A stretch of DNA of 36,795 bases. Origin: Pseudoxanthomonas sp. GTDB taxonomy: Bacteria > Pseudomonadota > Gammaproteobacteria > Xanthomonadales > Xanthomonadaceae. The stretch spans positions 1 through 36,795 of the forward strand of contig JAGHZW010000155.1 of NCBI GenBank assembly GCA_017745195.1, written 5' to 3'. The notes below the pieces were generated by a model that did no database searches, was not told where the DNA came from, and saw nothing but the letters and a program-made list of their open reading frames with translations. The position numbers and the translations under genes are program-made. Shown one piece after another: positions 4,700-21,755 of this stretch. Numbering within the stretch: the stretch's first letter is position 1; each line of letters starts with the position of its first letter.

Positions 4700-4876
4700 G
4701 CCAGTGCACGGCACGGGACGTGCCGGGTTGGCACGCTTCCTGCTGCAACCATCCCGTGCACCCATCGCGGCAATGCGTTCGGGGGCGCGGGCTGGAATTG
4801 GAACAGGGGCCAGCCACGCGCGCGATGGGGAAGCCGAGGGGCCGGCAGTCGGGGGACTGCCGGCCCCATTTTTTTG
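4700..4876 (+). ncRNA. Candidate small RNA ending at an orphan intrinsic terminator
   Basis: A strong plus-strand intrinsic terminator ends at about 4876, yet both neighbouring genes (mnmG and the lipoprotein gene) run on the minus strand. Some plus-strand transcript must start in the preceding 150-200 bases. The stretch contains a further hairpin (CGGCACG-GGA-CGTGCCG, 4709-4725). Its short reading frames resemble no family. The 5' end is a guess, as I see no good promoter. It does not show 4.5S, 6S or tmRNA signatures that I can recognise. Call it an unassigned RNA gene. Confidence 0.35.
4838..4876 (+). terminator. Rho-independent terminator
   Basis: A perfect 13-bp stem, GGGGCCGGCAGTC (4838-4850) with GACTGCCGGCCCC (4855-4867), closes a four-base loop of G and is followed by A and a run of seven T. 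On the opposite strand no T-run follows the stem, so it acts on plus-strand transcripts only. Confidence 0.9.
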
Positions 4877-19518: not shown

Positions 19519-20712
19519 ATGAGTCCTGCCGATCCCGCTGCCGCGCCCGACTTCCGCTCGCGCGGGTTCCTGCTCGGGCACATCCGCGACACGATGGCCT
19601 TCTATCATCCGCGCTGCATCGATCCGGCTGGCGGCTTCTTCCAGTTCTTCAAGGACGACGGCACGGTCTACGACCCGCATACCCGGCACCTGGTCAGCAG
19701 CACGCGCTTCGTCTTCAACTATTCGATGGCCTGGCAGGCGTTCGGCGACGACGCCTATCGCGACGCGGTCCGCCATGGCATCGCCTTCCTGCGCGATGCG
19801 CACCGCAACCCGGATACGGGCGGCTATGCCTGGGTGCTGCACGACGGCCACGTCGCCGACGCGACCAACCACTGCTACGGCCTGGCCTTCGTCGTGCTCG
19901 CGTACGCCAAGGCGCTGGAAGCGGGCATGGAGGAGGCGCGCGGCTGGCTCGAGGAAACCTGGCAGCTGATGGAACGCCATTTCTGGGAGCAGGAACACGG
20001 CCTGTATGCCGACGAAGCCGACGCGAACTGGCAGCTGTCGCCGTATCGTGGCCAGAACGCGAACATGCACGCCTGTGAAGCCTGGCTGGCCGCCTACGAG
20101 GCCAGTGGCGATTCGCGCTACCTGCAACGCGCACAGCTGCTGGCCGCGAACATGAGCGGACGCCAGGCCGCGCTCGCCGACGGCCTGGTATGGGAGCACT
20201 ATCACCGCGACTGGTCGGTGGACTGGGACTACAATCGCGGCGACCGCAGCAACATCTTCCGTCCGTGGGGCTTCCAGCCCGGCCACCAGGTCGAATGGGC
20301 CAAGCTGCTGCTGATCCTCGACCGCCACGCACCGGATGCGGCGCACCTGCCGCGCGCGCGCGAACTGTTCGACCGCGCCGTCGCCATGGCCTGGGACGAA
20401 GCGCATGGCGGCCTGGTCTACGGCAACGACACCGACGGCCGCGTCTACGACACCGACAAGTACTTCTGGGTGCAGGCCGAGGCGCTGGCCACCGCGGCGC
20501 TGCTCGCCGCGCGTACCGGCGACGACGGCTACTGGCGGTGGTACGAGCGGATCTGGGACTACAGCTGGCGCCATTTCGTCGACCACGAGCACGGCGCCTG
20601 GTACCGGATCCTCGGCCCGGACAACGGCAAGCTCACCGACGAGAAGAGTCCGGCCGGCAAGACCGATTACCACACCATGGGTGCGTGCTACGAGGTGCTG
20701 CGGGTCCTGTAG
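19519..20712 (+). CDS. AGE-family epimerase/isomerase, probably D-mannose isomerase
   Basis: The product is 397 residues, an (alpha/alpha)6 barrel of the N-acylglucosamine 2-epimerase superfamily. Conserved blocks are Ser-Ser-Thr-Arg-Phe-Val-Phe, Asn-Ala-Asn-Met-His-Ala-Cys-Glu-Ala, Pro-Gly-His-Gln-Val-Glu-Trp-Ala and Tyr-His-Thr-Met-Gly-Ala-Cys-Tyr-Glu, carrying the Arg, Glu and paired His residues of the active site. The superfamily includes mannose isomerases (mannose to fructose), YihS and cellobiose 2-epimerase. The convergent neighbours, a PfkB kinase and a FucP-type permease, fit mannose to fructose to fructose-6-phosphate. The start at 19519 directly follows a Cys/Arg-rich non-coding stretch with a weak ribosome-binding site. 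The TAG stop is part of a GTAG repeat. Confidence 0.85.
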   Translation: MSPADPAAAPDFRSRGFLLGHIRDTMAFYHPRCIDPAGGFFQFFKDDGTVYDPHTRHLVSSTRFVFNYSMAWQAFGDDAYRDAVRHGIAFLRDAHRNPDTGGYAWVLHDGHVADATNHCYGLAFVVLAYAKALEAGMEEARGWLEETWQLMERHFWEQEHGLYADEADANWQLSPYRGQNANMHACEAWLAAYEASGDSRYLQRAQLLAANMSGRQAALADGLVWEHYHRDWSVDWDYNRGDRSNIFRPWGFQPGHQVEWAKLLLILDRHAPDAAHLPRARELFDRAVAMAWDEAHGGLVYGNDTDGRVYDTDKYFWVQAEALATAALLAARTGDDGYWRWYERIWDYSWRHFVDHEHGAWYRILGPDNGKLTDEKSPAGKTDYHTMGACYEVLRVL

Positions 20713-20856
20713 GAGCCCGTCCTGCGGGCGACGCGAGGTGGTTCAGGCCACGACGCGTTTCGCGTTTGCCTCTATGGAAGTGGGGAATGGAGTTCCGGCA
20801 TACGGACTACATCGCCTGTGCTGGCGTTCGGGGTCGCCCACAGGACGGGCTACTAC
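20709..20856. repeat. Inverted pair of GTAG-type REP-like elements
   Basis: The plus-strand copy starts GTAG at 20709 and folds GCCCG-TCCTG-CGGGC (20715-20729). The minus-strand copy starts GTAG at 20856 and runs to about 20832, folding GCCCG-TCCTG-TGGGC. The two differ at only a few of about 27 positions. They resemble the GTAG-headed REP elements (SMAG) described in Stenotrophomonas. The TAG of each GTAG is the stop codon of its flanking gene: the isomerase at 20710-20712 and the kinase at 20855-20853. The bases between show no gene. Confidence 0.8.
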
Positions 20857-21755
20857 AGGAGCGCGGCGATCTCGGCGGCCGTGGGCGCATGGGCGCCGGC
20901 CCGCGCGCAGGCCGCTGCCGCTGCCGCGGCGGCGAAGCGCACATGCTCGCCGACGCCGGCATCGGCCCGCCGCAACAGGCTGGCGAGGAAACCGCCGATG
21001 CAGGCATCGCCCGCGCCGACGGTATCGACTACTGCTACGGCGAATGCCGGCTGCTCGATGCGGTTGCCATCGGCCAGGTGCGCGGTCATGCCGTCGGCGC
21101 CGCGGGTGTAGAGCACGGTTGCCAGCGGTGCGAGTCGGCGCACGCGCGCCAGCGCATCTTCCGTGGCCAGCACCGGATAGATCTGGCGCAGGTCCTCGTC
21201 GGAGATCTTCAGCACGCTCGCCAGCGCTGCCATGCGTTCGAACAGCAGCGGGTAGTCGGCACCCATCAGGTTGCGGCAGTTCGGATCGAAACTGATCGGC
21301 ACGCCGCTGGCGTGCAGACGTTCGGCGATGGCCACCAGGTGCGCGCCCAGCGGCTGCCGCACCAGGCTGATGCAGCCGAAGTGGGCGAATTCGCATGCAT
21401 CGTCCCAGCCCGCGGGCAGGCGCGCGGGATCGAACGCCAGGTCGGCGCTGCCGAGGAAGAAGTATCGCGGCGGATCGAGCTGCGGAACCATCGCCACAAG
21501 CGGCGGTTCGGCGACGACCTGGGCGAAGCGCAGGTCGAGGCGGGCCGCCCGCGACAGCGCGATGATCTCCTGGCCCAGCACGTCGTCGCCGACCGCGCCG
21601 CCCCAGCCGGTCGGTACGCCGAGCGTGGCCGCCACCCGCGCCACGTTCCAGCACGCGCCACCGGCCACGCTGTGCCAGGTCGCCTCGCCGGTGCGGACGA
21701 AATCGGTCAGTGCCTCGCCGAACACGACAAGGCGGGGCAGGGGAGCGTCGTGCAT
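20853..21755 (-). CDS. PfkB-family sugar kinase, probably fructokinase
   Basis: The product is 300 residues of the ribokinase/PfkB fold. The N-terminus reads Val-Phe-Gly-Glu-Ala-Leu-Thr-Asp and the second glycine-rich motif is Asp-Thr-Val-Gly-Ala-Gly-Asp250-Ala, with Asp250 the catalytic base. The sugar-binding Gly-Gly-Ala-Cys-Trp-Asn-Val-Ala block is present. Fructose phosphorylation is inferred from the neighbours: the permease gene ends eight bases upstream on the same strand and the mannose/fructose isomerase converges. The start is the ATG at 21755. The protein has a run of Ala near the C-terminus and ends with a TAG from the REP-like repeat. Ribokinase or another PfkB specificity cannot be excluded. 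Confidence 0.85.
   Translation of the reverse strand: MHDAPLPRLVVFGEALTDFVRTGEATWHSVAGGACWNVARVAATLGVPTGWGGAVGDDVLGQEIIALSRAARLDLRFAQVVAEPPLVAMVPQLDPPRYFFLGSADLAFDPARLPAGWDDACEFAHFGCISLVRQPLGAHLVAIAERLHASGVPISFDPNCRNLMGADYPLLFERMAALASVLKISDEDLRQIYPVLATEDALARVRRLAPLATVLYTRGADGMTAHLADGNRIEQPAFAVAVVDTVGAGDACIGGFLASLLRRADAGVGEHVRFAAAAAAAACARAGAHAPTAAEIAALL

Follow-up and report, generated by a model that had tools for sequence, protein, structure and literature searches.

A pair of inverted GTAG-headed, REP-like repeats contains the stop codons of two convergent genes in Pseudoxanthomonas sp.

Two convergent genes and the doublet between them

We analyzed a stretch of 36,795 nucleotides from Pseudoxanthomonas sp. 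(contig JAGHZW010000155.1 of assembly GCA_017745195.1), called the window below. It corresponds to contig C155 in a draft genome (3.61 Mb, 246 contigs, 87.6% complete). In this window a sugar epimerase gene and a sugar kinase gene converge on a pair of short inverted repeats (Table 1), and the 140 nt that separate their stop codons lie entirely within the 148-bp doublet. The left repeat reads GTAGGAGCCCGTCCTGCGGGCGAC, and the right repeat, GTAGTAGCCCGTCCTGTGGGCGAC, differs from it by 2 mismatches. A scan of the window for sequences within 3 mismatches of the left repeat returned only these two places. The arms lengthen to an inverted repeat of 28 nt, 93% complementary, with 100 nt between them. 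Inverted GTAG copies at the ends of both genes had been proposed from a first reading of the letters, and this was borne out, the TAG in each head being the stop codon of a gene. No match within 3 mismatches of the GTAG repeat appeared in 100 shuffles of the window, so the observed stop-supplying doublet is not due to chance.

Table 1. Position of the doublet and of the two genes in the window
Feature	Positions	Strand	Evidence
N-acylglucosamine 2-epimerase-family gene, 397 aa	19519..20712	+	Pfam PF07221 GlcNAc_2-epim, E 6.8e-118
Epimerase TAG stop, within left REP head	20710..20712	+	ORF reading
REPIN-like unit: inverted REPs with outward GTAG heads, 100-nt interior between 24-nt repeats	20709..20856		Repeat scan and RNA fold; outward-head pairs common in G011
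Left REP: GTAG head and hairpin around GCCCG-TCCTG-CGGGC	20709..20732	+	Repeat scan, RNA fold
Right REP: GTAGTAG head, weaker hairpin	20833..20856	-	Repeat scan, RNA fold
Kinase TAG stop, within right REP head	20853..20855	-	ORF reading
PfkB-family sugar kinase gene, 300 aa	20853..21755	-	Pfam PF00294, E 2.5e-39; start inferred (plausible ATG at 21755)

The form of the doublet resembles that of several described repeats. Like the GTAG-tagged REPs (Di Nocera et al. 2013, PMC3733652), most of which sit between genes that converge or run in the same direction, it is extragenic and each copy joins a GTAG head to a short palindromic stem, that of the second copy being weak. Like REPINs (Bertels and Rainey 2011, PMC3116915), it consists of two inverted REPs and a spacer that can form one hairpin, outside genes. 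It differs from them in its length of 148 nt (against 90-99 nt for 186 of 187 pairs in the congener G011), in its few copies in its own genome and in having both heads as stops. Xanthomonas REPs beginning GTAGGAGCGC (Nunvar et al. 2010, PMC2817692) share the GTAGGAGC head, as well as a tail of GCGAC or GCGA, but differ in stem sequence. In our automatic search, a REP head had to be close to a perfect stem of 5 that enclosed a loop of 3-8; in the window this search recovered the left REP only. By eye, another copy in the same genome (L004) likewise joins a GTAGGAG head with a GTAGTAG head.

The complementary outer flanks (TCCT/AGGA) were considered as a further part of the element and rejected. 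Overall, 13 pairs of G003 had paired flanks no more alike than shuffled ones; among 184 pairs of G011, agreement at several positions was lower than after shuffling.

Copy number of the repeat family and search for a RAYT gene

The repeat is rare in its own genome, where five places match it with no more than 3 mismatches, two of them the doublet arms. The pattern GTAGGAGCN{6,14}GCGAC has 4 matches against 19 for a reversed control pattern. The many copies typical of GTAG REPs are thus missing from this 87.6% complete draft but present in congeners, with 1228 in G011, 352 in G003 and 338 in G007 (G005 has 1). The pattern occurs in 14 of the 17 genomes of the genus, with 1 to 1228 copies; in seven of these 14 it has 1-22 copies, and in five of the seven, our own included, the count is below that of the reversed control (for G004 and G016 it is 22 against 19 and 22 against 8). 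Since the family is small in its own genome, the name REP for the window repeat rests on form and on the congener copies, not on copy number. Across the 17 genomes, copy numbers of the GTAGGAGC REP pattern extend from 0 to 1228 (L085-L104 are examples from G011), a very uneven expansion. In 1.2 Mb of G011 we found 187 outward-head REP pairs, 186 of which span 90-99 nt.

A RAYT gene would have been accepted at a score above the NF047646 cut-off (80 bits) with REPs beside it. The search listed 25 places with Y1 transposases, 13 loci of which were examined. The search for a RAYT gene that the sequence-only reading had advised succeeded in part: the genome has a RAYT-like Y1 transposase gene, but at 71.3 bits against the cut-off of 80, and the head-and-stem search detected no GTAGGAGC REP at its locus (L010), so that a RAYT gene with adjoining REPs was not found in this genome. 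A GTAGGAGC REP lay within the scanned region at 4 of the 13 loci (L211 in G011, L213 in G001, L214 in G013 and L215 in G010).

The same locus in congeners

The closest named relatives, as judged by the epimerase, are Pseudoxanthomonas species with 80-89% protein identity. In the DNA of this gene, congeners are 13-17% divergent from the window, and a near-identical strain with the site empty is not among them. The epimerase is present in 12 of the 17 genus genomes, our own included; named loci from one genome were counted once. Nine of the 11 congeners share the window's stop position, which is TGA in seven (G001, G003, G004, G005, G012, G013 and G014), TAA in one (G015) and TAG in one (G011); in G002 and G008 the gene is one codon longer and ends in TAG. 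Because 9 of 11 congeners share this end, the epimerase is, by comparison with its relatives, untrimmed, its stop codon having been changed in place.

The kinase adjoins the epimerase in 10 of the 11 congeners, the G003 locus being without it. Taking a conserved Ala-Pro as the starting point and counting by eye, we found a tail of 11 residues in the window and of 12, 13, 14, 14, 14, 14, 15 and 18 residues in the eight congeners without a REP head at the stop; the window kinase is therefore 1-4 (once 7) residues shorter. Where the stop is a REP head, the tail has 16 (G011) or 14 (G012) residues, also by eye. An insertion that trimmed both genes, as originally suggested, can accordingly be maintained at most for the kinase, since nothing was lost from the epimerase. 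In 3 of 11 species, counting the window, the kinase stop coincides with a REP head, and the three heads belong to different REP types (L036, L038 and L043).

The intergenic gap without a detected REP measures 6 nt in G013, 7 nt in G015, 9 nt in G005, 13 nt in G008 and 55 nt in G004. Wider gaps were found in G012 (109 nt), G011 (208 nt), G002 (224 nt), G001 (232 nt) and G014 (275 nt). The automatic head search returned no REP in the gaps of G001, G002 and G014; by eye, the first two hold REP-like sequence, and the gap of G014 seems to hold sequence of another kind. In G014 (L048/L054), a genome 57% complete, the epimerase and the kinase are each in pieces, possibly through sequencing errors.

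REP heads and gene stops in a REP-rich congener

The distance between REP heads and stop codons was followed in 1.2 Mb of G011, which was compared with the corresponding 1.2 Mb of G005, syntenic and in inverted order. Genes were called by codon composition (803 genes). Among 489 REP heads, 31 coincided with a same-strand stop (distance 0), 34 lay at 12-60 nt and none lay at 1-11 nt or from -150 to -1; none of the 489 REPs lay mostly within a called gene. TAG ends 200 of the 803 genes, and 31 of these 200 stops are supplied by REP heads. When copies were compared with stops in our own genome, as the first reading had advised, the four further places inspected by eye had no head seen as a gene stop.

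A stricter set was built from ortholog-backed genes. Of 371 G011 genes with a homologue of at least 50% identity, 329 were syntenic and kept, and 42 were dropped. Sixteen of the 329 end in the TAG of a REP head; no head lay at 1-11 nt, 19 lay at 12-60 nt and one read-through was found at -79. REP tails faced a gene end within 60 nt in two cases. A looser first pass over 400 kb had given 13 REP-ended genes with an ortholog, three of which are absent from the stricter list. Within the first 30 loci each of G003 and G007, distance 0 was found for 4 of the 30 distinct REPs in G003 and for 4 of the 28 in G007; one head was at 11 nt and none at 1-10.

The idea that a REP met two TAG stops by chance is scarcely credible. 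TAG stops are not rare, as the 200 in the G011 stretch attest, but neither the shuffles of the window nor the distribution of distances in G011, with its 31 heads at exactly zero and its empty interval beyond, can be reconciled with it.

The locus in the window has one unusual detail. In G011, 28 of 187 doublets supply one stop and none supplies both, about one being expected if the two ends were independent (an estimate from 28 of 374 heads). A doublet supplying both stops is thus rarer than the single-stop outcome and, because no G011 doublet is of this kind, it does not stand as a general outcome. Insertion accompanied by deletion was considered for the convergent pairs of G011: 24 of 47 hold REPs, but the far sides often carry further sequence and repeats, which obscure the residual gaps.

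Donated or native stops

The 16 REP-ended genes differ from the others in their last codon, which is TTG in 9 of 16 against 1 of 313 (Fisher p 1e-12). This fits donation because the heads nearly always have a T before them, and it suggests that the repeat also writes the last codon. The orthologs of the 16 genes end in TGA (9), TAG (4) or TAA (3), and those of 53 ordinary TAG genes in TGA (29), TAG (17) or TAA (7). With TAG in 4 of 16 against 17 of 53, stop type by itself is not decisive between genomes this far apart. Among the four TAG orthologs, one resembles, by eye, the head of another REP family.

Loss of a native stop followed by capture of a REP 12-60 nt downstream predicts proteins longer by 4-20 codons. 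Compared with G005, 13 of the 16 REP-ended proteins are 0-3 codons longer or one shorter, and three are six codons shorter. As no lengthening of 4-20 codons is seen, this candidate was rejected as the main route.

IS200/IS605-type elements insert beside their target sequence. The two genes may have ended in GTAG already, the element having inserted beside this tetranucleotide in the same manner and the stops being native. A target preference is conceivable from the pyrimidine-rich stretch and the nearly invariant T before REP heads (30 of 30 in G003), and the repeat-free kinase of G013 ends in CTG TAG. However, TAG occupies the epimerase codon in just 1 of 11 congeners, and not as GTAG; the orthologs of REP-ended genes end in YTGTAG in 0 of 16 cases and in GTAG in 2 of 16, against controls of 0 of 5 (a set without power) and 9 of 33; and for the nine TTG-ended genes no ortholog ending in TTG was seen by eye. 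We regard native GTAG ends as improbable. The sequence-only reading had named, as evidence against itself, a relative lacking the repeat whose gene stops at that codon through a different TAG. For the epimerase this occurs once in 11, in G011, where a C precedes the TAG; for the kinase the nearest case is that of G013, whose TAG lies two residues later.

The pyrimidine-rich stretch, whose T precedes GTAG in all 30 of the G003 heads (L061, L074, L229-L256), may reflect an insertion preference or be part of the element.

Excess of heads at distance zero

Neutral insertion was simulated on G005 with no motif, with T before GTAG or with a YYYYYT left flank. When at most 3 codons could be lost, there were 0.13, 0.12 and 0.04 heads at 0, respectively, for each head at 12-60 nt; with up to 10 lost codons this ratio was 0.35, 0.52 and 0.15. 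Of the ortholog-backed REP-ended genes, 13 had lost at most one codon and all 16 at most six, which with 19 heads at 12-60 nt gives observed ratios of 0.68 and 0.84. The excess over simulation is about 5-17-fold for at most 3 lost codons and 1.6-5.6-fold for up to 10; its size thus depends on the number of lost codons tolerated. The missing read-throughs may be attributed to selection against out-of-frame landings, whereas the excess at zero is not explained by such selection alone. The empty zone after stops was discarded as a sign of a functional effect: stop codons contain purines, so a pyrimidine-rich left flank leaves distances 4-9 empty, as the YYYYYT simulation did by itself.

The earlier interpretation of the doublet is sustained in one part: donation of stops by the repeat is supported by sequence comparison, namely by the TGA or TAA of the epimerase in most relatives and by G011 heads at stops above the neutral simulation. 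The same pile-up at zero could also come from selection for this position, a hairpin right after the stop helping the mRNA through 3' protection or damped translation, and this is compatible with donation. In E. coli, REPs at most 15 nt from a stop are reported to reduce translation (PMC12306157, citing its reference 17), and the occurrence of three REP types at the kinase stop in 3 of 11 species points in the same direction. Against such selection, the right hairpin is weak (z -0.37) and the excess shrinks under the looser codon limit. We consider it possible but rather doubtful.

A proposed route to the doublet-ended genes

The reading we favour, and hold to be probable, is that a REPIN-like doublet with outward GTAG heads was inserted into a short convergent gap and replaced both native stops. 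A head with its preceding T (T-GTAG) would bring a stop and part of the last codon, an in-frame landing giving a clean NTG-TAG end; out-of-frame landings would cause translation through the hairpin and then be lost by selection. An original gap of 6-55 nt, as in repeat-free congeners, would have placed both heads within reach of both genes. As the element has nothing outside its heads, a small deletion (estimated at about 16-30 nt for gaps of 6-13 nt) would have to accompany the insertion, or two events would be needed.

More tentatively, the doublet may be viewed as a portable gene ending: T-GTAG heads following a pyrimidine tract would be preferentially inserted or retained at native stops, rewriting the last codon and the stop (mostly to NTG-TAG) at one or both ends, so that C-termini and stop usage would be remodelled without damage to the protein.

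That GTAG REPs often provide TAG stops has already been published (Di Nocera et al. 2013, PMC3733652), and in two species most of the REPs found between convergent genes are no more than 20 bp from both 3' ends (PMC3733652). Section 15 of that paper neither counts REP stops nor compares them among orthologs, and it contains no frame test; in its available text the full words Lysobacter and Xanthomonas are absent, while X. campestris and X. oryzae are discussed. No statement on REP-provided stops was found in the available text of PMC2817692, PMC12306157, PMC3686654 or PMC3116915, and among the papers listed for Pseudoxanthomonas with REP none is titled on the subject. The published remark is now quantified, with 31 of 200 TAG stops in 1.2 Mb of G011, whose heads either coincide with the stop or follow it by 12 nt or more (one head in another species lies at 11). 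These counts bear on how REPINs avoid harm to the host, on how TAG usage can increase in a genome and on whether RAYT insertion favours gene ends.

Folding of the doublet and other features of the window

The whole unit (20709-20856) folds at -80.8 kcal/mol (z -5.48). The left hairpin is moderate (20706-20740, -16 kcal/mol, z -1.85) and the right one weak (-7.8 kcal/mol, z -0.37). Termination of both mRNAs by the two hairpins, which the first reading had also envisaged, was not upheld: a search for intrinsic terminators (a GC-rich stem followed by a T run) returned no terminator-like site in 20500-21100. The hairpins could possibly protect mRNA 3' ends or, since the left stem begins 2 nt past the stop, slow termination.

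Elsewhere in the window, positions 1-54 and 1571-1624 form a perfect 54-nt inverted repeat, one arm of which is at the contig start, and this may be an assembly fold-back. Positions 4759-4873 (+) match the Rfam family asX1, a small RNA of Xanthomonadaceae, with 109.8 bits.
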